Source of the DNA: Thermomonas sp. S9 | Lineage (GTDB): Bacteria; Pseudomonadota; Gammaproteobacteria; Xanthomonadales; Xanthomonadaceae | Assembly (NCBI RefSeq): GCF_024704365.1 | Contig: NZ_JAJDFY010000001.1 | Span: 1,779,001 to 1,843,000, forward strand | Direction of reading: 5' to 3' | DNA length: 64,000 nucleotides | Shown: one piece after another, positions 29,279 to 42,442 of the stretch | Numbering within the stretch: the first letter of the stretch is position 1 | How the letters are laid out: each line of letters starts with the position of its first letter | Translations under genes and position numbers: made by a program | Notes under the pieces: generated by a model | Database searches by the model: none | Told to the model about the DNA's origin: nothing | The model's input: the letters and a program-made list of their open reading frames with translations, nothing else

Positions 29279-29279
<1 letters not shown>

Positions 29280-30413
29280 TGGCGGCAGCGCGCCTGCACC
29301 GCGCGCTGTCCGAGATCCCCGCCGCGGCCTGGGACGGGCTGCACGACGGGCGCCATCCGTTCATTACGCATGCCTTCCTGCACGGGCTGGAAGCCACCGG
29401 CTGCCTGCGCCCCGACTGGGGCTGGACACCCCTGCCATCTGGGGCTGTGGGACGGCGACGCGCTGGTCGCGGCGGCGCCCGGCTACCTGAAGGACAACAG
29501 CCACGGCGAGTTCGTGTTCGACCACGCCTGGGCGCAGGCCTATGCCCGCCACGGCCTGCCCTACTACCCGAAATGGCTGTGCGCGGTGCCGTATTCACCG
29601 GTCACCGGTCCGCGCCTGCTGGCGCGCGACGCTGCGGCGCGCAGTGCGCTGCTGGAGGCCATGCAGGCGCTGGTGGCGCAGTCCGGCCTGTCTTCGGCCC
29701 ACGTCAACTTCCATCTCCAGGACGAAGAGCCGGCGTTTGGCGCGGACTGGCTGCTGCGCGAGGACATCCAGTTCCACTGGTGCAACCGCGGCCACTGGCA
29801 GGGATTCGAGGACTTCCTCGCCGCGCTCGACCACAAGCACCGCAAGAACATCCGCCAGGAGCGCCGCAAGGTAGCCGAGGCGGGCATCAGCTTCCGCATC
29901 GTGCACGGCGACGACGCCGACGAGGACGACCTGGCGGCGATGCACGGCTTCTATCTGCAGACCTTCGCCGACTACGGCAATGCCCCGGCGCTGACGCTGG
30001 CGTTCCTGCACCATCTCGCACGGGCGATGCCGCGCCGGCTGGTGCTGGTGCTGGCCGAGCGCGCAGGCCGCACCATCGCCGGCGCGCTGTGCCTGCGCGG
30101 TGGCGACACCCTGTACGGCCGCTACTGGGGCGCAACCGAACTGCACCCGGGGCTGCACTTCGAGACCTGCTACTACCAGGGCATCGCCTACTGCCTGCGC
30201 GAAGGCCTGACCCGGTTCGAACCTGGCGCTCAGGGCCGGCACAAGCTGGCCCGTGGTTTCCTGCCGACCTCCGTGCGCAGCCGCCATTGGATCGCCGAGC
30301 CACGCTTCGCCCGAGCCCTGCGCGACTGGTGCGCGCAGGAGACCGCCAGCGTGCGCCAACACCGGCAGGCACTGCGGGCGCACAGTCCGTTCCGCGCGGA
30401 GGAAGGCGCATGA
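29279..30413 (+). CDS. FemAB/GNAT-like acyltransferase family protein (PF04339 type), one frameshift
   Basis: Restored length is 377 residues. Typical family stretches: HPFITHAFLHGLEATGC, WGWTPCHLGLWDGD, YYPKWLCAVPYSPVTGPRLL, HRKNIRQERRKVAEAGI, ETCYYQGIAYCLREGL and EPGAQGRHKLARGF. The family (formerly DUF482) is related to FemAB/GNAT acyltransferases; its substrate is not known. A C4 run at 29429-29432 has one C too many. The gene is coupled to trxB (TGATG) and aat (ATGA). Sitting directly before aat, which also uses aminoacyl-tRNA, is suggestive but not proof of a related substrate. Confidence 0.82.
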
Positions 30414-31168
30414 GACTGCCGGTGCCGTGGCTGGCGGCCGATCCCGAAGCCCCGTTCCCGCCGCCGGAACAGGCGCTGGCCGAGCCGGACGGCCTGCTCG
30501 CGGCCGGCGGTGACTTGTCGCCGGCGCGCTTTCTCAACGCCTATCGCAGCGGCATCTTCCCGTGGTTTTCCGAAGGCGAGCCGATCCTGTGGTGGAGCCC
30601 CGCGCGGCGCGCGGTGCTGCGCACCGACGGCGTGCACCTGTCCGCCCGCCTGCGCCGGCGCCTGCGCAACAGCGGCTGGAGCGTGCGCGCGGACACCGTC
30701 TTCGCGGCGGTGGTGGACGGCTGCGCGGCCCCGCGCGACGGCCAGTCCGGCACCTGGATCACGGCCGGGATGCGCACTGCGTATCTGGAACTGCACCGGC
30801 TCGGGCACGCCCACAGCATCGAGGTGTTCGATGCCGGCGACCGGCTGATCGGCGGCGTGTTGGGGCTGGCATTCGGGCACGTGTTCTGCGGCGACAGCAT
30901 GTATTCCGCGGAGTCCGGCGCCTCGTCCCTGGCGTTGGCAATACTGGCGCGGCGGCTGCATGGCTGGGGCTGGCCGCTGATCGATGCCCAGGTGCCCAAC
31001 CCGCATACCCGCCGGCTGGGGGTGGACGTCTGGCCGCGCGCCGACTACCTCGCCGCACTGGCCCAGCTGCGCGACCTGCCGCTGGCCCCCGGCGACTGGC
31101 GCGAACGCTTCGGCATCTGGCCTGCTGCGGCGCTGGGCGAGGCGGCGCGCGATGGCCTGCGCGATTAA
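30410..31168 (+). CDS. aat: Leucyl/phenylalanyl-tRNA-protein transferase
   Basis: 252 residues, normal for Aat. Motifs include FPPPEQALAEPDGLLAAGGDL, AYRSGIFPWFSEGEPILWWSP, GTWITAGMRTAYLELHRLGHAHS, HVFCGDSMYSAESGASSLAL and LIDAQVPNPHTRRLG. It adds Leu or Phe to proteins with N-terminal Arg/Lys, marking them for ClpAP (N-degron pathway). It starts in the ATGA overlap with the upstream gene. The frame is intact. Confidence 0.95.
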   Translation: MRLPVPWLAADPEAPFPPPEQALAEPDGLLAAGGDLSPARFLNAYRSGIFPWFSEGEPILWWSPARRAVLRTDGVHLSARLRRRLRNSGWSVRADTVFAAVVDGCAAPRDGQSGTWITAGMRTAYLELHRLGHAHSIEVFDAGDRLIGGVLGLAFGHVFCGDSMYSAESGASSLALAILARRLHGWGWPLIDAQVPNPHTRRLGVDVWPRADYLAALAQLRDLPLAPGDWRERFGIWPAAALGEAARDGLRD

Positions 31169-31674: not shown

Positions 31675-34600
31675 GTGCCACCCATCCGCCCACGCGCCTC
31701 GCTGCTCCGCAGGCTGTCCCTGTCGATCTGGGGCATGTTCCTGGCCCTGCTGCTGTCGCTGCTGGCGCTGGGCTACCTGGGGATGCGCCTGGGCGCGGAC
31801 CGGCTGGTGCCGATCGTGGCGCAGCGCTCGGCGATGCTGCGCGCGGCCAGCGGCGAAGGGCTGTTCCTGCAGGCCGAGCAGAGCGTGGCGCGCCTGCACC
31901 GGGAGCTGCTGGAGCGGCTGCGGCATGCCGACCACGACGCCACCCTGGCCCGCTTCCACGCGCTGTTCGAGCGCAGCCAGGACGGGCTGTGGCGGCTGCG
32001 GCCGGACCTGGTGGACCCCGAACGCGCGCCCACCCTGTATCTGCACCAGCCAGCCCAGGGGCTGGGCGAATCGGCGCGCATCCGCGCGGTGGTGGCCTTT
32101 GATCTGCTGCGCGAGCAGGGCCCGGCGCTGTCGCCGCCGTTCTATTCGGTGTACATGGACTTCGTCGAGGACGGCCTGCTGGTGTACTCGCGCGGGCGCG
32201 ATCTCGCGGCCGGGGCGGATGCCACCTACACCAATACCGGCTACCCGACCATGCAGGGCTCCGAGCCGCGGCGCAACCCGCAGCGCCGGCTGTTCTGGAC
32301 CCCGGTGTACCTGGATCGCCAGGCCAATACCTGGATGGTTTCGGTGATCCAGCCGCTGGACTGGCAGGGCCAATGGGTGGGCACCGTCGGCCACGACATT
32401 GCCATCCAGAGCCTGCTGGACCACAACGCCGTGCAGAACCAGGGCGGCGCGCTGGAGCTGGTGATGAGCGCCGACGGCGCGCTGATCGCGCATCCGCAGC
32501 TGCGCCAGCGGATCGCCGCCGCGCACGGGCAGCTGAGCATCGCCAGCCTCGGCGACCCGCAGCTGGCCCAGGTGCACGCCACCCTCGCCGCCGCCGGGAC
32601 CGCGCAGGGCGCGCGGCGCTCGCCGGACGGCCGCCTGTGGGTGGGCTGGGCCACCATCCACGGCCCCGGCTGGTACCAGGTGTACGTGCTGCCGCAGGCG
32701 GTGATCGACCGCATCCTGGCCTGGGGGCTGCTGGCCCTGTTCGCGTTCGGGGTGCTGGGCCTGCTGCCGGGCATGTGGCTGCTGCGGCGGCGGATCCACC
32801 GCCTGGTCGCGCTGCCGCTGCAGCGCCTGACGCGCGCGGTGGACGAACTGGGCCAGGGCCAGCAGCCCAACCCGATCGCCATGCCGGGCGACGACGAGCT
32901 GGGCCGGCTGGCCGGCGCGTTCGATGACATGGTGGAGGAAGTGGCGCAGCAGCGGGCTCTGCAGCACGCGCACGCGCAGGCCCTGCAGACCGAGGTGGAC
33001 GAGCGTCGCGAGTTCATGCAGCGCCTGCAGGAGGAGCGCACCCGCCTGCATACCCTGCTCGGCGCGATGCGCCAGGGCATCGTGTTCGTCAACAGCGAAC
33101 AGGTGGTGGTGTACTGCAATGCCGCCTTCCTGACGATGTGGGCTTCGCCGGCGAAGCCAGCATCATCGGCCGCTCGACCCGCGAAGGAATCGCCGACATT
33201 CTGCCGCTGGTGCGCGATCCGGAGGCGCTGCTGGAGCGCCTGCGCGCCTCGATCGCGGCCCCGCTGGAGCCGGCGCATTTCGAGATCCCGCTGGTGGATG
33301 GCCGCACCATCGTGCACGACGCCTACCCGCTGCAGGACGCGCAGGGCCGCCACATCGGCCGGCTGTGGGTACAGGAGGACGTCACCCGCGAGCGCGAGGT
33401 CGCGGCGCAGCTGGTGCAGCTGGCCGAGCACGACGTGCTGACCGGGCTCAACAACCGGCATCGCTTCGAGCAGGACCTCGAGGCCTTCTTCCACGCCGCC
33501 GAGCGCACGCCCAGCCAGCTGGCGCTGCTGGTGTTCGACCTCGACGAGTTCAAGTACGTCAACGACACCTACGGCCACCGCGCCGGCGATGCCGTGCTGA
33601 ACCGGATCGCGGTGGAAATACGCATGCTGATCCGCGGCGAGGACACCCTGTACCGCCTGGGCGGCGACGAATTCGTGGTGCTGATGGCGCATGCCAGCGA
33701 GCACGAGGCCGCCCAGCTGGCCGAGCGCATCGTCCGCCGCATCGCCCAGGCTCCGCAGGATCTGGGCGAGCAGACCCTGCGCCTGACCTGCAGCCTGGGC
33801 ATCGCCCATTTCCCCACCCACGCCGGCAACGCCCAGGACCTGGTGGCACACGCCGACATGGCGATGTACCAGGCCAAGCACACCGGCAAGAACCGCTGGA
33901 GCGTGTATCGCCCCGACCACGACGCCTCGCGCGCGATGGCGGTGCACCTGGGCTGGAACGACCGCATCGCGCATGCGGCTCGAGCATGACCTGCTGCGCC
34001 TGCATTTCCAGGGCATCTACCGCGCCCGCGACGGCCACCTGGAGCACCTCGAGGCGTTGCTGCGGATGGAGGACGCCGCCCAGCCCGGCACCCTGATCCT
34101 GCCGGCGGAGTTCATCGGCCATGCGGAGAAGAGCGGCAAGATCCTCGAGATCGACCGCTGGGTGATCCGCCGCTGCATCGGCCTGCTGGCCGCGCATCCG
34201 CACCTGCCGGCGCTGGCGGTGAACATCTCCGGGCGCTCGTTCGACGATCCCGACCTGCCCGCCTTCATCGCCGAGGAGCTGCGCCAGCGCCACGTCTCGC
34301 CGCGGCGCCTGCTGGTGGAGCTGACCGAGACCGCGGCGGTGTCCGACATGGGCGATGCCGCGCGCTTCATCGCGGCGCTGCGCCGCACCGGCTGCCTGGT
34401 CTGCCTGGACGACTTCGGCGCCGGCTTCGCCTCGTTCGCCTACCTCAAGCACCTCAACGCCGACATCCTCAAGATCGACGGCATGTTCATCCGCGACCTG
34501 CCGCAGGACGCCGACAACCAGGTGTTCGTGCGCACCATCATCGACGTGGCGCGCGGCATGGGCAAGCAGACCGTGGCCGAGTTCGTGGAGGACGGGCGCA

Positions 34601-34713
34601 CGTTGCTGATGCTGCGCGAGATGGGCGTGGACATGGTCCAGGGCTACCACCTGGACCGCCCCAAGGCCGAGCACCCGGCCCTGCAGCCGCCGCCGTTCGG
34701 CGCGCGCCGCTGA
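31675..34713 (+). CDS. Membrane sensor GGDEF-EAL protein (c-di-GMP turnover), two frameshifts
   Basis: Restored length is about 1012 residues from GTG 31675, which has AGGG 7 bases upstream. Membrane helix at about 18-38; periplasmic Cache-like sensor to about 340; second helix (ILAWGLLALFAFGVLGLLPG); HAMP; coiled coil; PAS (LLGAMRQGIVFVNSEQVVVYC); GGDEF with intact RLGGDEF; EAL with LEALLRM, AVNISGRS, VELTET, CLDDFGAGFAS, ILKIDGMFI and QGYHLDRP. Both catalytic halves look active. The frame breaks at 33140-33142 (G lost) and 33977-33978 (extra G); the net length is unchanged. A poor TCAAGTAA box at 31618 lacks a proper sigma-28 -10. Confidence 0.88.
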
Positions 34714-34740
34714 GCGCGCCGCGGCGGGCCGGCCGGCGCC

Positions 34741-37311
34741 TCAGCCGGCGCCGATCCGCGCGCGCAGGTGCGCCAGCGATTCCTCCACCTGGTCGACCAG
34801 CACCAGGCACAGCTCGCCCGGCTGCAGCAGCTCCAGCGCGCGATCGATCGCGGCGAACTCGCCGTGGATCTCCTCCACCACCCGCGTGCGCGGCGCGCCC
34901 TGCAGGCCTTCGCGCAGCAACCCCAGCACCTCGCCGTCGGTGCGCCCGCGCTGGCAGGCGTCCTGGTACAGGATCACGGTGTCGAAGGCGGCACCGAGGA
35001 TGCGGGTCTGCTGGCGGATGTCCTCGTCGCGGCGGTCGCCGGCGCCGCTGATCACCACCGTGCGCCGCAGCGCCGGCAGGTTCTCCACCGCCGCCACCAG
35101 CGCCGCCATCGCGTCCGGGTTGTGGCCGTAGTCGGCGATCACGGTGGCGCCCTTGAACGGCATCACGTTGAACCGCCCTGGCGCATTCCCGCTATCGGCG
35201 TTGAAGCTGGCCAAGCCCTGGCGGATCACGCCCCAGTCCAGCCCCAGCGCCCAGCCGGCGGCGAGCGCGGCCATCGCGTTGTCCACCTGGAAGCCGATCC
35301 GGCCGCCGTGGGTCACCGGCACCCCGGCCAGCGGCAGCCGGGTCTCGAACCCGCCTTCCATCGCCACCAGGTCGCCGTCCTGCACGAACACCACCCGCCC
35401 GCCCTGGGCGCGGTGCGCGGCCAGCACCGGCTGGTCGCCGTCGGCGGCGAAGAAGATCACCCTGCCCGGGCAGTGCGCGGCCATCGCCGCGACCACCGGG
35501 TCGGCCGCGTTGAGCACCGCGAAGCCGGATCGGGCGACGTTGCGCACCACCACCCGCTTCAGCACCGCCAGGTCGTCCACGGTGGTGATGAAGTTCAGGC
35601 CCAGGTGGTCGCCCATGCCGATGTTGGTCACCACCGCCACGTCGGCGTGGTCGAACGCCAGCCCCTCGCGCAGCAGCCCGCCGCGCGCGGTCTCGAACAC
35701 CGCCGCGTCCACCAGCGGGTTCAACAGCACGTTGCGCGCGCTGCGCGGGCCGGAGCAGTCGCCGGAATCGATCTGCACGCCGTTGACGTAGATGCCGTCG
35801 GTATTGGTCATGCCCACGCCCAGCCCGCGGGTGCGCAGCAGGTGCGCGATCAGGCGCACGGTGGTGGTCTTGCCGTTGGTGCCGGTGACCGCCACCACCG
35901 GGATGCGTCCGTTCTCGCCGGGCGGGAACATGGCGTCGATGATCGCCTTGCCCACGTCGCGCGGCTTGCCGTACGACGGCGCCAGGTGCATGCGCAGGCC
36001 CGGCGCGGCGTTGACCTCGACGATCCCGCCGCCCTGTTCCTCCAGCGGGCGCAGCACGGTCTCGCACACCACGTCCACCCCGCAGATGTCCAGCCCGACC
36101 ATGCGCGCGGCCTCCACCGCGCGCGCCGCCACCTCCGGGTGCACGTCGCCGGTGACATCGGTGGCGGTGCCGCCGGTGGACAGGTTAGCGTTGTTGCGCA
36201 GCACCACCCGGCGCCCCTTCTCGGGCACCGAGTCGGCATCCAGCCCCTGCTTTTCCAGCGTGCGCAGGGCGATCTCGTCGAAGCGGATGCGGGTCAGCGA
36301 AGTGGCATGGCCCTCGCCACGGCGCGGGTCGGCATTTACCTGCTCGACCAGCGCGCGCACGCTGGACACGCCATCGCCGATCACGTTCGGCGGCTCGCGC
36401 CGGGCCGCCGCCACCAGGCGGTCGCCGACCACCAGCAGGCGGTAGTCGCCGCCGGGCAGGTAGCGCTCCACCATCACCTCGTCGCGGAATTCGCGCGCCA
36501 CATCAAAGGCGCGACGGATGTCGGCCTCGGCGTGCAGGTTCACGGTGACGCCCTTGCCCTGGTTGCCGTCCAGCGGCTTCACCACCACCGGCAGGCCGAT
36601 CTCCTGCGCGGCCGCCCAGGCCTCGTCGGCGCTGGCCACCGGCCGACCTTCCGGCACCGGCACCCCGGCCGCTCGCAGCAATTTCTTGGTCAGCGCCTTG
36701 TCCTGGGCGATGGCTTCCGCGATCGCGCTGGTGCTGTCCATCTCCGCGGCCTGGATGCGCCGCTGGCGACTGCCCCAGCCCAGCTGCACCAGGCTGCCGG
36801 CGGTCAGTCGCCGGTACGGGATGCCGCGGTTCACCGCGGCTTCTACGATGGCGCCGGTGCTCGGCCCCAGGCGCGCGTCCTCGTCCAGCGCGCGCAGTTC
36901 CGCCAGCGCCCCTTCGAGGTCGAACGGTGCGTCCTCGCGCGCGGCCTGGCACAGCTGCTCGGCCAGCTGCAGCGCGCGCCGGCCCACCGCTTCCTCGCTG
37001 TACTCCACCACGATCTGGAACACGCCCGGGTCCACCGTGCGCGCGGTGCGGCTGAAGGTCACCGGGCAGCCGGCCTGCGCCTGCAGGCACAGCGCGGTGA
37101 ACTCCAGCGCGTGCGCCAGGGTGAGGGTCTCGGACTGGCGGGTGGTGCGCAGGAAGCCGAGCTCCGGGAAGCGCTGGCGCAGGCGTTCCTCGAAGCCGGG
37201 GATGCTGTCCAGCGGGCGCTCGCCCTGCGACAGGGTGACGATGGCCTCGATCGCGGTGCGCCGGGTCCACAGGTTGGGGCCGCGCAGGGCCCGGATGCGG
37301 GAAATATCCAT
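34741..37311 (-). CDS. cphA: Cyanophycin synthetase
   Basis: 856 residues, the usual size for CphA. N-terminal domain beginning MDISRIRALRGPNLWTRR; ATP-grasp domain (VVVKPLDGNQGKGVTVNL, about residue 240) that adds Asp to the backbone; Mur-ligase-like domain with P-loop VAVTGTNGKTTTVRL at about 475-489 that adds Arg. It makes the nitrogen store multi-L-arginyl-poly-L-aspartate. The start at 37311 overlaps the stop of the cphA2-like gene (ATGA). The frame is intact. No cyanophycinase (cphB) is in the window. The divergent ABC exporter and DUF1854 gene are likely part of the same locus. Confidence 0.95.
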   Translation of the reverse strand: MDISRIRALRGPNLWTRRTAIEAIVTLSQGERPLDSIPGFEERLRQRFPELGFLRTTRQSETLTLAHALEFTALCLQAQAGCPVTFSRTARTVDPGVFQIVVEYSEEAVGRRALQLAEQLCQAAREDAPFDLEGALAELRALDEDARLGPSTGAIVEAAVNRGIPYRRLTAGSLVQLGWGSRQRRIQAAEMDSTSAIAEAIAQDKALTKKLLRAAGVPVPEGRPVASADEAWAAAQEIGLPVVVKPLDGNQGKGVTVNLHAEADIRRAFDVAREFRDEVMVERYLPGGDYRLLVVGDRLVAAARREPPNVIGDGVSSVRALVEQVNADPRRGEGHATSLTRIRFDEIALRTLEKQGLDADSVPEKGRRVVLRNNANLSTGGTATDVTGDVHPEVAARAVEAARMVGLDICGVDVVCETVLRPLEEQGGGIVEVNAAPGLRMHLAPSYGKPRDVGKAIIDAMFPPGENGRIPVVAVTGTNGKTTTVRLIAHLLRTRGLGVGMTNTDGIYVNGVQIDSGDCSGPRSARNVLLNPLVDAAVFETARGGLLREGLAFDHADVAVVTNIGMGDHLGLNFITTVDDLAVLKRVVVRNVARSGFAVLNAADPVVAAMAAHCPGRVIFFAADGDQPVLAAHRAQGGRVVFVQDGDLVAMEGGFETRLPLAGVPVTHGGRIGFQVDNAMAALAAGWALGLDWGVIRQGLASFNADSGNAPGRFNVMPFKGATVIADYGHNPDAMAALVAAVENLPALRRTVVISGAGDRRDEDIRQQTRILGAAFDTVILYQDACQRGRTDGEVLGLLREGLQGAPRTRVVEEIHGEFAAIDRALELLQPGELCLVLVDQVEESLAHLRARIGAG

Positions 37312-39512
37312 CACGCGCCCATGGCGTCGGTGGCGCGGGCGGCGGCCGCCCGCTCCTGTTCGAAATGTTCGATGCCGGCCGGGATCAGATCCACCGGCAC
37401 GTCCAGCGCCCAGGCGGCAGCGACCGCGGCCAGCACCGCCTCCAGCTGGGCCGGCGTGGCCGCCGCCCCGGTCAGCGCGAAGCGCGAGGCGCGCGCCAGC
37501 GGCTCCTCGTTGCCGGCGGCCGCCAGCACGATCGCGCCGTTGCGCACGAACACCGCGCGCCCGCCCTGCTCCAGGTGCGGTTCCAGCGGCGCGGCATCGG
37601 CATCGCGCGCGAACAGGATCACTTCGCCGTCGCACAGCCCGGCCATCGCGGCCACCGCCGGCTCGCAGGCGTTGAGCACCGCCGCGCCCTGCGCCAGCAC
37701 CACGTCCACCTGGGTGCGCAGCACCGCGTGCAGGCGTTCGGGCGAATCGATGTAGAACTCCGCCAGCGCAGGATCCGGATCGGCATCGGTGAGCACGCCG
37801 ACCTGGCAGCGGTCGTACGGCAGGCCCTCGGCCAGGATCGCGCGCGCGCTGGTTTCGATCACCGCGGCCTCGATCTCGCGGTTGATCAGCAGCCGCTGGC
37901 CGCCGTCGAAATGCTGGCAGGGGCGCGCCGCCAGCTGGCGCTGGTCGAGGAACAGGCCCTCGCCGCAGGCCAGCCCCACGCTGCGCCCGGACAGCCGCAG
38001 CAGATGCCCGACCAGGCGCGCCAGCAACGCCGGCTCACGGCGGCCGAGCACGCCGACGATCGGGATGCGGCCGTCGTCGCCGGCGGCGAACAGATGGTCC
38101 ACGATCGCCTGCCCGGCCGGGCGCGGCTTGCCGACCGCCGGCTTGAGGTGCATCAGCAGGCTGGGGCCGGCGTTGACCTCGACGATCGCGCCGCGGGTCT
38201 CGGACAGCGGCCGCGAGACATCGCGCGTCACCAGGTCGATCCCGGCGATGTCCAGGCCGACCACCCGCGCGGCCTGGATGGCGGCGGCGGCGACTTCAGG
38301 ATGCACCTCGTCAGTGACGTCGAAGGCCATGTTGCCGTGGCGCAGGATGAGCACCTCCTGCCCGGCCGGCGGCACCGACTCCGGCGCATAGCCCTGACGC
38401 TGCAACTCGTGGATGGCGATCGGCTCGCGCTCCAGCAGCAGGGTTTCCAGCGGGAAGCCCTCCTCCTCGCCGCGGCGCGGATCGCTGTTGATCTGCAGAT
38501 CGATCAGCTCGCGGATGCTCGAACGGCCATCGCCCACCACCCGCGCGGTATCGCCGCGGTTGGCCGCCACCAGCTTGCCGCCGACCACCAGCAGGCGGTG
38601 TTCGTCGCCCTCGATGAAGCGCTCCACCATCACCCCGCTGCCCTCGGCCAGCGCACCGGCATACGCGGTTTCCACGTCCTGCCGGGTCTTGAGGTCGGCG
38701 AACACGCCGCGCCCGTGGTTGGCATCCAGCGGCTTCACCACCACCGGCAGGCCGATCTCCTGCGCCGCCTCCCAGGCGTCCGCGGCGTCCTCCACCAGCC
38801 GCCCTTCCGGCACCGGCACGCCGCAGCTGGCCAGCAGGGTCTTGGTGAGGTCCTTGTCGCGCGAGATGCTTCGGCGATCGCGCTGGTGCGCTCGGTCTCG
38901 GCGGTCCAGATCCGGCGCTGGCGGCGGCCGTAGCCCAGCTGCACCAGGTTGCCGTCGGTCAGCCCCAGGTGCGGGATGCCGCGCTCGCCGGCGGCCTCCA
39001 CGATGGCCGCGGTGCTGGGCCCGAGCAGGCGGCGGTCGGCCAGCTCGCGCAGCGGGGGCAGCCGCGCCGGCAGGTCGAATCCGGTGTCGTTGATCGCGGC
39101 CATCAGCAGGTCGCGCGCCAGCAGCAGGCAGGCGCGGCTGACCTGCTCGTCGCGCGAGCGCACGGCTACCTTGTAGAGGCCGCGCGGCCCGGCCTCGCGC
39201 GCCTTGCCGAAACCGGTCTGCATGCCGACCTGGGTCTGTAGTTCGAGGGTGATGTGCTCGGAGGATGTGCGCCGGCCAGGTGCCCTCGCGCAGGCGCTGC
39301 ACGAAGCCGCCCGGCGCGCCCACGCTGCAACGGTGCTCCTGCAGCCCCGGCAGCCAGGCCAGCAGGCGCTCGGTGAGCCCGTCGATGCGGTTGGAGGGAT
39401 AGTCCTCGAGACCGCCGATGTCCACCCAGGCTTCCAGCACCGGGCGGTAGGTCCAGAGGTTGGGGCCGCGCAGATAGGCGACCCGCAGGATGGTGATGTC
39501 GTCGTGCTTCAT
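37311..39512 (-). CDS. cphA2: CphA2-like cyanophycin synthetase homologue (degenerate Mur-ligase P-loop; two compensating frameshifts)
   Basis: Restored length is 733 residues from ATG 39512. The N-terminal and ATP-grasp halves match CphA (YLRGPNLWTYRPVLEAW; VVVKPLDANHGRGVFADL). The C-terminal half is shorter, and at the place of the CphA P-loop it reads GVLGRREPALLARLVGHL, with no GxNGKT. That is the CphA2 pattern; CphA2 in cyanobacteria re-polymerises beta-Asp-Arg dipeptides rather than free Asp and Arg. Frame breaks at 39260-39261 (extra G) and 38867-38868 (G lost) scramble about 130 residues in a literal reading but cancel out. Upstream partner of cphA in one operon. Confidence 0.85.
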   Translation of the reverse strand: MKHDDITILRVAYLRGPNLWTYRPVLEAWVDIGGLEDYPSNRIDGLTERLLAWLPGLQEHRCSVGAPGGFVQRLREGTWPAHILRAHHPRTTDPGRHADRFRQGARGRAARPLQGSRALARRAGQPRLPAAGARPADGRDQRHRIRPAGAAAPAARAGRPPPARAQHRGHRGGRRRARHPAPGADRRQPGAAGLRPPPAPDLDRRDRAHQRDRRSISRDKDLTKTLLASCGVPVPEGRLVEDAADAWEAAQEIGLPVVVKPLDANHGRGVFADLKTRQDVETAYAGALAEGSGVMVERFIEGDEHRLLVVGGKLVAANRGDTARVVGDGRSSIRELIDLQINSDPRRGEEEGFPLETLLLEREPIAIHELQRQGYAPESVPPAGQEVLILRHGNMAFDVTDEVHPEVAAAAIQAARVVGLDIAGIDLVTRDVSRPLSETRGAIVEVNAGPSLLMHLKPAVGKPRPAGQAIVDHLFAAGDDGRIPIVGVLGRREPALLARLVGHLLRLSGRSVGLACGEGLFLDQRQLAARPCQHFDGGQRLLINREIEAAVIETSARAILAEGLPYDRCQVGVLTDADPDPALAEFYIDSPERLHAVLRTQVDVVLAQGAAVLNACEPAVAAMAGLCDGEVILFARDADAAPLEPHLEQGGRAVFVRNGAIVLAAAGNEEPLARASRFALTGAAATPAQLEAVLAAVAAAWALDVPVDLIPAGIEHFEQERAAAARATDAMGA

Positions 39513-39576
39513 GTCGGCGCTGCGGGTCGGCAGATGCGTCGCCTCGGGCGCCCTGCCGCTCGCTATACTTTGCTCC

Positions 39577-39595
39577 CTCTGGATGCCATCCAGAG
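39577..39595. promoter_or_regulatory. Inverted repeat in the cphA2/ABC exporter divergent region
   Basis: CTCTGGAT / ATCCAGAG (39577-39584 with 39588-39595), 3-base centre. It lies in the 138-base gap that separates the two halves of the cyanophycin locus, 8 bases after a TATACT -10-like element. It is a candidate shared operator. Confidence 0.45.
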
Positions 39596-39650
39596 TAGCG
39601 GAGCCGGGCTCTGGCGTCATATTACGGATTCTTTAAAAAACAGCCGCCCC

Positions 39651-41955
39651 ATGCCCGCGCCCGCCGCTCCCGCGCCCATCGCCACGCCCGCTGCCTGCCA
39701 CGGCCTGCCAGCCCACTGGCAGGAACCCCTGCAGCAGCGACTGCAGCCCGGCGAAACCGCGCTGGCCGCGCTCGCGATCGATCTCGACGACGCCCTGCAC
39801 TACGGCGACGGCGTGCTGGTGCTGACCGACCGCCGCCTGCTGGCGCGCCTGCCGCATGCCGCACACTGGCAGGACTGGACACTGACGAGCGATCTGCGGC
39901 TGCATCACGGCGACCACGCCGGCGTCGGCCAGCTGGAGCTGGTGGATGCCCGCCGCCGCCTGTTCCACTGCCGCTTCACCCTCGACCAGAATCTGGCCGC
40001 GCTGCGCCTGCTGTCGCAATTCGAACGCCTGCAGAAACGCACCGGGGATGCCCGTGCGACGCACGAAGACGAAGACTCGCTGTGCCCGATCTGCAAGGCC
40101 CCACTGCCGCCGGACGAGGACGACTGCCCGGCCTGCGTACGCGAGCTGCACACCCCGCCCTCCACCTGGACCCTGCTGCGCTTGTGGCGGTTCGCGCGGC
40201 CCTACCGCGGCGCGCTGCTGGCCGGCTTCCTGCTCACCCTGGCCTCGACCGGCGCCACCCTGGTGCCGCCGTACCTGACCATGCCGCTGATGGACAAGGT
40301 GCTGATCCCGTTCCAGAACGGGCAGCCGATCGACCAGCGCCTGGTGCTGATGCTGCTCGGCGGCATCCTCGGCTCGGCGCTGCTGGCCTGGTTCCTGGGC
40401 TGGGCGCGCACCTACATCCTGGCGCTGGTGTCCGAGCGCATCGGCTGCGACCTGCGCACGGTGACCTACGAGCACCTGCTCACGCTGTCGCTGGAGTACT
40501 TCGGCGCCAAGCGCACCGGCGACCTGCTGACCCGGATCGGCTCGGAATCCGACCGCATCTGCCTGTACCTGTCGCTGCACCTGCTGGATTTCGCCACCGA
40601 CGTGCTGATGCTGGCGATGATCGCGGCCATCCTGTTCTCGATCAATCCGATGCTGGCGCTGGTGACACTGCTGCCGCTGCCGCTGATCGCATGGTTGATC
40701 CAGCTGGTACGCAACCGCCTGCGCACCGGCTTCGAGAAGATCGACCGCGCCTGGTCGGAGCTGAGCAGCGTGCTGGCCGACACCATCCCCGGCATCCGCG
40801 TGGTCAAGGCGTTCGCCCAGGAAGGCCGTGAGACCCGCCGCTTCCGCGAGGCCAACCGCCATTACCTCGCGATCAACGACCGCCTGAACAAGGTGTGGTC
40901 GCTGTTCACCCCGACCGTCACTCTGCTCACCGAGCTGGGGCTGATCGTGGTGTGGGCGTTCGGCATCTGGCAGGTGTCGCGGCACCAGATCACGGTGGGC
41001 GTGCTGACCGCGTTCCTGGCCTACATCGGCCGCTTCTACACCCGCCTGGACTCGATGAGCCGGATCGTGTCGGTGACCCAGAAGGCGGCGGCCGGCGCCA
41101 AGCGCATCTTCGACATCCTCGACCATGTCTCCAGCGTGCCGGAACCGGCGCGCCCGGTGCCGCTGCCGGCCGCGCGCGGCGCGCTCACGCTGCGCGACGT
41201 CGGCTTCCGCTACGGCAACCGCGGGGTGATCCGCGGCCTCGACCTGGAGATCCGCCCGGGCGAGATGATCGGCCTGGTCGGCCACAGCGGCTCCGGCAAG
41301 ACCACCCTGGTCAACCTGATCTGCCGCTTCTACGACGTCACCCAGGGCGCGATCCTGGTGGATGGCATCGACATCCGCTCGGTCGCGCTGGCCGACTACC
41401 GCCGCCACATCGGCCTGGTGCTGCAGGAGCCCTTCCTGTTCTTCGGCACCATCGCCGAGAACATCGCCTACGGCCGCCCCGACGCCAGCCGCGAGGAGAT
41501 CGTGGCCGCGGCCCGCGCCGCGCACGCGCACGAGTTCATCCTGCGCCTGCCGCACGGCTACGACTCGCTGGTGGGCGAGCGCGGACAGGGCCTGTCGGGC
41601 GGCGAACGCCAGCGCATCTCGATCGCGCGCGCTGCTGATCGACCCGCGCTTTTTGATCCTGGACGAGGCCACCTCGTCGGTGGACACCGAGACCGAGAAG
41701 GAAATCCAGCGCGCGCTGGACAACCTGGTGCAGGGCCGCACCACCCTCGCCATCGCCCATCGCCTGTCCACCCTGCGCAAGGCCGACCGGCTGGTGGTGA
41801 TGGAGCGCGGGCGGATCGTGGAAGTGGGCCCGCACGACGAGCTGATGGCGCGCCAGGGCGCGTACTGGCGGCTGTACCAGGCGCAGCTGCGCAACGTGGA
41901 CCAGGAAGAGGCGCTGGCCGAACTGCCGCTGGAAGGAGTGCCGCATGAGCGCTGA
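39651..41955 (+). CDS. Cyanophycin-associated ABC exporter with N-terminal PH-like domain and zinc ribbon (one frameshift)
   Basis: Restored length is 768 residues. The first ~130 residues look like a bacterial PH-type fold ([18 protein letters not shown]). A zinc ribbon follows with C145-x2-C148-x10-C159-x2-C162. Then a full type-I exporter half-transporter: six membrane helices (about 180-480), Walker [14 protein letters not shown] (about 544), signature LSGGERQ, Walker [22 protein letters not shown] run at 41624-41632 has lost two bases; restored it reads [11 protein letters not shown]. It is coupled to the DUF1854 gene (11-base overlap). The pair recurs next to cyanophycin synthetases; the cargo is unknown. 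Confidence 0.85.
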
Positions 41956-42412
41956 GTACCGGCTCGAACGCAATGCCTTCGGGCGGCTGGTGCTGACCGC
42001 CGCCGATGGCCGCGTGCACGAGGGCGTGGTGGCGGTGCGCGCCTTCCCGCTGAGCGCGCCCGACACCGGGATCGCGCTGGTCGGCGGCGACGGCCACGAG
42101 CTGGCCTGGATCCCGCACCTGGACGCGCTGGACCCGGCGCGGCGCGCGCTGGTGGAGGCCGAACTCGGCCAACGCGAATTCGTGCCGGTGATCCGGCGCC
42201 TGCGCGAGGTGTCCACCTTCGCCACCCCCAGCCAGTGGACGGTCACCACCGACCGCGGCGATACCCGCTTCATCCTCAAGAGCGAGGACGACATCCGCCG
42301 ACTGGGCGCGCACGCCCTGCTGGTGGCCGACAGCCACGGCGTGCACTACCTGATCCCGGACCTGCTGGCGCTAGACCGCCACAGCCGCCGCCTGCTCGAC
42401 CGCTTCCTGTAG
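41945..42412 (+). CDS. DUF1854 protein, cyanophycin-associated
   Basis: 155 residues. Recognisable family stretches are RLERNAFGRLVLTAADG, VAVRAFPLSAPDTGIALVGG, LAWIPHLDAL and HYLIPDLLALDRHSRRLLDRFL. No signal peptide, membrane helix or catalytic motif is visible. The family is found beside cyanophycin synthetase and the ABC exporter encoded just upstream, with which this gene overlaps by 11 bases. It is probably an accessory subunit or regulator of the exporter. Its function is unknown. Confidence 0.85.
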   Translation: MSAEYRLERNAFGRLVLTAADGRVHEGVVAVRAFPLSAPDTGIALVGGDGHELAWIPHLDALDPARRALVEAELGQREFVPVIRRLREVSTFATPSQWTVTTDRGDTRFILKSEDDIRRLGAHALLVADSHGVHYLIPDLLALDRHSRRLLDRFL

Positions 42413-42442
42413 CGCACCGCCGCTTCCTTTCTGCTTCTTGCG

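Follow-up and report, generated by a model that had tools for sequence, protein, structure and literature searches.

What does an ABC exporter, accompanied by a small DUF1854 protein, do beside two cyanophycin synthetase genes? The question is raised by a 64,000-nucleotide stretch of the Thermomonas sp. S9 genome (the window), in which these two genes lie divergent from cphA and a second synthetase gene, here called cphA' (Table 1). Cyanophycin is known only as a reserve, which is the reason given in the available text of PMC10206079 for calling missing cyanophycinases unanticipated. The preliminary description of the locus had called the exporter-DUF1854 system uncharacterized. This holds for function in the literature searched, where we found no functional study of the pair and no paper mentioning DUF1854 (many subscription papers lay outside the reach of the search); the pair is, however, already named in NCBIfam, as NF052233 and NF052234. 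Those names give no function and say nothing of the PH fold, of the tie to CphA', or of cyanophycinase being excluded. The association with cyanophycin is partly in print already, and no account of its meaning was found. We found that the ABC exporter, DUF1854, cphA', and cphA genes constitute a four-gene module.

Table 1. Features of the exporter-synthetase locus, in window coordinates
Feature	Position	Strand	Basis or remark
cphA, 856 aa	34741..37311	-	NF010623 1209.6 bits for main part
cphA' (earlier "cphA2"), CphA1 paralogue	37311..39512	-	NF010623 778 bits in one frame (cut-off 877)
Divergent intergenic region, cphA' versus ABC gene	39513..39650	.	Coordinates from gene starts
ABC exporter gene (NF052233 cyanophycin metabolism-associated ABC transporter)	39651..41955	+	Frame broken near 41633
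PH-fold domain of ABC protein	39711..40058	+	Residues 21-136
Four-Cys zinc ribbon of ABC protein	40083..40136	+	Residues 145-162
ABC transmembrane region (PF00664)	40215..41036	+	Residues 189-462, 148 bits
ABC nucleotide-binding domain	41232..41955	+	PF00005 92 bits as far as break
DUF1854 protein (NF052234, PF08909), 155 aa	41945..42412	+	Profile matches

The ATG at 39651, the cysteines C145, C148, C159, and C162, and the 11-base overlap between the ABC and DUF1854 genes, all given in the preliminary description, were confirmed in the sequence. The DUF1854 protein belongs to NF052234 (235 bits; cut-off, 150), matches PF08909 (171.7 bits; cut-off, 26.8), and is 97% identical to its homolog in Thermomonas haemolytica DSM 13605. 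The ABC exporter is present as a gene, as had been described, but not as a single open frame in this assembly: homology to NF052233 places its second part at 41635-41955, in a different frame from the first. Scored separately against NF052233 (cut-off, 880), the pieces reach 1185 and 184 bits; the first alone establishes family membership, and the second covers profile positions 660-753. The divergent cphA' is likewise frame-broken. The window genome (2.85 Mb in two contigs, 89.9% complete) aligns with that of T. haemolytica at 93.9% identity over 10.5 kb (31946-42415), and the alignment has 22 gaps, none of them a multiple of three in length, which marks the assembly consensus as error-rich. 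The ABC gene is a single open reading frame (ORF) in 20 of 20 relatives, in T. haemolytica, and in G499 of the same genus. Given these intact relatives and the error-rich assembly, we take the frame breaks to be assembly errors, and the reading of the locus as carrying a dead gene was rejected on the same grounds. Frame-broken-looking genes in the window lie at 29279-31168, 37311-39620, and 39651-41955. The alignment with T. haemolytica (L084) ends at 42415, directly past the DUF1854 stop codon, so that the right edge of the module is a synteny break between the two.

The PH-like domain and four-Cys zinc ribbon proposed for the ABC protein were borne out. Its N terminus is predicted to adopt a PH-domain-like fold, a seven-stranded barrel capped by a C-terminal helix; by comparison with the structure 2re3, a DUF1285 fold is possible. 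The zinc ribbon, which is sub-threshold for DZR in Pfam and matches ribosomal eL40 with an E value of 0.022, was found by regular expression in 89 of 95 relatives and is missing in 6. The remainder of the protein is a type IV ABC exporter with fused PF00664 and PF00005 domains, whose motifs in the window are split over two frames, Walker A and the signature lying in frame 1 and Walker B onward in frame 2; all three ATP motifs are conserved over the 95 relatives. In the list of nearest solved structures, the top rows are eukaryotic two-half ABCB proteins, and the nearest solved bacterial half-transporters are TM288, MsbA, and SAV1866. Like MsbA, SAV1866, TM287/288, and the glucan exporter models of NCBIfam, the window protein is a half-transporter with PF00664 and PF00005; in contrast to type IV exporters, it has an extra N-terminal PH fold and zinc ribbon and a DUF1854 partner gene.

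The pair and the synthetase genes keep close company. Of 398 Pseudomonadota genomes sampled, 21 carry NF052234 and 29 carry CphA, the former all lying among the latter; CphA was scored here for two candidates per genome, and a third copy could be missed. The pair adjoins two tandem CphA genes in 20 of the 21, one of which, G294, also carries a canonical CphA gene apart from these; in the remaining genome, G185, the contig ends inside the single CphA seen. Co-occurrence with cphA had been set beforehand as a test of the association, and CphA was present in 26 of the 27 tested genomes with NF052234 over the cut-off, comprising 21 of 21 in the 398-genome sample and 5 of 6 elsewhere. No CphA was seen in the exception (G836), whose genome is 78% complete and whose pair sits on a 3.6-kb contig. 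We then have the gene order at 80 named loci, the best of 569 confirmed matches and hence those nearest to the window, several congeners included: cphA and cphA' are divergent from the ABC and DUF1854 genes in 63, the four genes are codirectional in 5 (Nitrosomonas, Nitrosospira, and Rhodocyclaceae), and the remaining 12 loci are truncated, incomplete, or parsed otherwise by the ORF caller. CphA', whole or partial and told from CphA by best BLAST match, stands beside the pair in 78 of these best 80 of 569; at the remaining 2, the contig ends within the ABC gene. Among 669 flanking ORFs of the named loci, crude clustering revealed no family in more than 7 loci, and nothing beyond the four genes seems to belong to the module. 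A chance neighborhood of the pair with cphA was rejected on the co-occurrence counts and the 80-locus survey, and a functional linkage between pair and CphA is very probable. The tie is to the cyanophycin synthetase, as had been claimed, but not to cyanophycin metabolism generally, since eight genomes with only canonical CphA, and G474, lack the DUF1854 family. Of 149 genomes from the taxonomic family to which the window belongs, 3 have the DUF1854 family, all three within its genus, which suggests that the module was acquired there by transfer.

Module and cyanophycinase exclude each other in our samples. No cyanophycinase over the cut-off was found in any of 20 DUF1854 genomes in which canonical CphA was not seen, and one was found in 9 of 9 with canonical CphA, namely, the eight canonical-only genomes and G294 from the 29 CphA genomes of the 398 (Fisher test, 1e-7, kinship ignored). 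Six further DUF1854 genomes and one further canonical genome extend the counts to 0 of 26 versus 10 of 10, the 26 including G836. By tblastn over 103 loci, cyanophycinase was found only at the canonical locus L173 (G474), and none was detected in the 102 module loci (101 distinct; flanks of up to 10 kb). The module/canonical-CphA swap is seen even within the window's own genus: among five Thermomonas genomes, three (G000, G445 [T. haemolytica], and G499) have the module and no cyanophycinase over the cut-off, G474 has canonical CphA with an adjoining cyanophycinase and no DUF1854, and G522 has neither module nor canonical CphA. The window genome does not show the canonical storage arrangement, with a cyanophycinase in the genome, mostly next to cphA; at 89.9% completeness, its best match (103 bits; cut-off, 126.6) is unlinked to the module. 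A cyanophycinase-like (S51) match of 98-108 bits within a longer ORF was observed in all five Thermomonas genomes (e.g., G000 C1:151602-152141); because one of these has no CphA, the match is not tied to CphA and is probably a different peptidase. At canonical CphA-cyanophycinase loci in G267 (C1:3363326-3364489) and G474 (C5:508372-509493), we also observed a shorter second gene beside cphA, consisting of the Mur-ligase half only (profile position 477 onward).

This pattern fits a puzzle set out in the available text of PMC10206079, where 97% of cphA1-bearing beta-Proteobacteria lack cyanophycinase: Table 2 of that paper records a cyanophycinase in 2.8% of 903 such bacteria, and the accompanying text calls this unanticipated and proposes an unrecognized beta-proteobacterial cyanophycinase as a possibility. 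Two cphA genes and no cyanophycinase are likewise described for a Herminiimonas genome in the accessible part of PMC5670224. Among the roles suggested in the preliminary description, import of the dipeptide becomes less likely, as the ABC protein is of exporter type and no cyanophycinase over the cut-off is present to supply the dipeptide.

The two synthetase copies differ in which sites they keep. In the window, the ATG of cphA and the stop codon of cphA' share one base. CphA (TIGR02068, 975-997 bits; cut-off, 850) keeps the M-domain motifs and Asp-binding residues, has lost the N-domain peptidase site by deletion, and carries Q at H267; cphA' has the N-domain motif, a remodeled G domain, and a degenerate, truncated M domain. 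In the readable frame of cphA', H57, C59, and H79 are present, E82 and H83 fall at the frame break, and the M-domain P-loop is lost. We counted the corresponding residues, at sites taken from the available text of PMC9262961 and PMC9427784, in one MAFFT alignment of 91 CphA, 92 CphA' (all 183 distinct), and 9 canonical CphA sequences, using ORFs of at least 700 aa not touching a contig end and excluding the window copies. The N-domain peptidase set (H57, C59, H79, E82, and H83) is complete in 92/92 CphA' and in 1/91 CphA, that of G185, the site being lost in the other 90. The Arg-adding M-domain residues D585 and H586 are present in 91/91 CphA; in CphA', each is kept in 38/92 and both in 29/92, and the copies with M-domain motifs include full-length ones from Cupriavidus, Ralstonia, Achromobacter, and Pandoraea. 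The window CphA shows the same site pattern as its relatives. Over 1,500 random pairs, identity in the M core is 0.72 for CphA and 0.52 for CphA', with similar values in the other domains (N domain, 66% and 68%; G domain, 72% and 69%), and it is therefore mainly the M domain that is relaxed in CphA'. In a tree of 50 rows built from 20 hand-picked loci, CphA, CphA', and canonical CphA form one clade each, and the G185 protein lies near the split. By sequence comparison, CphA and CphA' are complementary sister lineages, and a division of labor between them is probable.

The label "cphA2" did not survive sequence comparison with solved chains. CphA' of L064 scores 528 bits against CphA1 (7lg5) and 214 bits against 8fxh, which we take to be CphA2, and on this closeness to CphA1 we reject cyanobacterial CphA2 as the identity of CphA'. 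By the mark of a missing M-domain P-loop and M lid, the window copy does resemble CphA2, having lost the P-loop and having a shortened C terminus; the P-loop lysine is kept in 49/92 CphA', so that a CphA2-like loss is not uniform. Cyanobacterial CphA2, which repolymerizes beta-Asp-Arg, is described as lacking both elements in the available text of PMC9427784. Many CphA', the window copy included, likewise have no P-loop lysine and are about 720-790 aa long; unlike CphA2, they have an intact N-domain peptidase site and no R458. Compared with a canonical locus of CphA1 and cyanophycinase, the module CphA has the Asp-binding residues in common, along with both the ATP-grasp half and the Mur-ligase half; the module differs in having no cyanophycinase, a CphA split into two complementary copies, and an added exporter. 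L030 (G294 C1:5343264-5345843) holds a canonical-type CphA with a cyanophycinase nearby, a partly lost N-domain peptidase motif, and Q at H267, in a genome that carries the tandem module besides. In L083 (G185), the ABC-DUF1854 pair adjoins a CphA that seems undivided and retains the sites of both the N and the M domain, the contig ending in the gene; this is suggestive of a single undivided CphA, and a search for preduplication loci in the class of G185 returned 1 of 48 genomes, G185 itself.

Retention of the peptidase site in all CphA' and its loss from 90/91 CphA also speak for one of the two chief rivals to an export system, namely, storage of the polymer as an intracellular reserve with CphA' as the missing cyanophycinase: its N-domain peptidase, perhaps with a further enzyme, would replace cyanophycinase, and the ABC exporter would guard the cell by expelling surplus arginine peptides or would act in placing granules. 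Experiments have shown that the N domain of CphA1 is a peptidase that cuts cyanophycin (PMC9262961, in its available text), and isoaspartyl dipeptidase is reported for 70.9% of CphA1-bearing beta-Proteobacteria in the accessible part of PMC10206079. The published N-domain activity, however, yields primers rather than dipeptides, and storage leaves the regular pairing of exporter and synthetase unexplained; we regard this reading as rather unlikely.

The other chief rival, a product other than ordinary cyanophycin, turns on the Asp pocket. CphA retains R323, S396, and R458 in 90-91 of 91 sequences (R323 and R458 in 91/91), and in CphA' the same replacement recurs almost everywhere: R323 is G in 90/92, S396 is deleted in 92/92, and R458 is L in 90/92. 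The ATP-grasp residues H267 (90/92) and R309 (92/92) are nevertheless retained in CphA', and its G domain is about as conserved as that of CphA (0.69 versus 0.72), as would be expected if the domain added a residue or cap other than aspartate and a modified or short peptide were secreted by the ABC protein. A changed pocket could be dead, structural, or polymer-holding, and in CphA the machinery for adding Asp and Arg is kept apart from Q at H267, so that we consider a noncyanophycin product unlikely. This Q is present in 90/91 CphA and also in the undivided CphA of G185 and the canonical-type CphA of L030; its occurrence in the latter implies that the change need not kill the site, and, with H267 changed in CphA, either copy may be the Asp-adding subunit.

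Distant relatives of the pair show that it is not confined to cyanophycin loci. A second sample, of 369 genomes, contained three DUF1854 matches below the NF052234 cut-off. In G712 and G540 (L166 and L167), DUF1854 follows an ABC exporter that is 37-39% identical to that of L064 and whose N terminus is predicted to carry the PH-like domain and zinc ribbon (profile match probability, 96%; E value, 1e-9), and no CphA was detected in either, in the stretches read or in the whole genomes at an E value of 1e-60. The soluble N-terminal domains, taken in the preliminary description as a hint of sensing or granule binding, are thus present but not peculiar to cyanophycin, and exporters of this type do not serve it exclusively. 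Of four genomes in the taxonomic family of the distant pair, two have DUF1854, one of these as a remnant without the ABC gene. The third match below the cut-off, in G579 (L168), is a DUF1854 remnant without ABC. PF08909 adds one borderline match in the 398-genome sample, a search of plasmids with the L166 DUF1854 protein gave no match, and the archaeal control, Sulfolobus acidocaldarius, has PF08909 over the cut-off. The cyanophycin-linked form thus looks like one branch of a broader type of exporter made up of PH-zinc-ABC plus DUF1854. Together with the closeness to TM288, MsbA, and SAV1866, the pairs without detectable CphA speak for a general envelope exporter for lipid or glycan that is only coregulated with cphA. 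Against this, every pair with enough flank in the best 80 of 569 loci adjoins CphA', across many genera and in two gene orders, which makes such an exporter very unlikely.

We favor a two-subunit synthetase with a dedicated exporter as the best explanation overall, a tentative one when rated at its weakest step. Within a cyanophycin system of four genes that has no cyanophycinase, cphA' and cphA would encode the two subunits, and the pair, as the transport half, would handle their product. CphA would elongate the multi-Arg-poly-Asp chain, and the N domain of CphA' would cleave it to short fragments, usable both as primers and as cargo. DUF1854, together with the PH domain and zinc ribbon, may act as a docking platform in the cytosol where the synthetase or its chain ends meet the exporter, and an ABC homodimer would carry polymer or oligomers through the inner membrane, so that they do not remain as a granule for cyanophycinase. 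MsbA-type exporters are not known to move long polyamides, and export of the product by the ABC protein is possible but somewhat short of probable. Linkage, the exclusion of cyanophycinase in the samples, the distribution of sites, and the predicted domain folds are read from sequences; linkage is well supported, and export is what we infer from the exporter type, the constant partnership, and the missing cyanophycinase. The further proposal of a second cyanophycin pathway in beta-Proteobacteria and some relatives is doubtful at present: a split synthetase plumbed to a PH-zinc-ribbon ABC exporter would secrete the polymer, or a capped short form, to the periplasm or the outside, with no need of cyanophycinase, and the rebuilt Asp pocket would give a different end or monomer.

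A published counterpart is the "Group 1" cphA cluster of activated-sludge bacteria, which, in the available text of PMC10687191, shares with the module two cphA genes, an ABC transporter, and no cphB, and is described as a possible composite transposon with flanking insertion sequences. Relative to that text, DUF1854, the CphA decay pattern, and the genome-wide absence of cyanophycinase are additions made here.

As a variant of cyanophycin metabolism, the module is real, coherent, and widespread. It offers a concrete, testable answer to the cyanophycinase puzzle as put in the available text of PMC10206079, namely, a separate system in these bacteria, recognizable by ABC-DUF1854 and a subfunctionalized CphA pair. 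If the product is indeed exported, cyanophycin or a relative would be a secreted polymer in, e.g., Nitrosomonas, "Candidatus Accumulibacter," and Cupriavidus, which are among the matches listed, and this would bear on nitrogen cycling, on nitrogen recovery from wastewater, and on genome papers that equate cphA with nitrogen storage.
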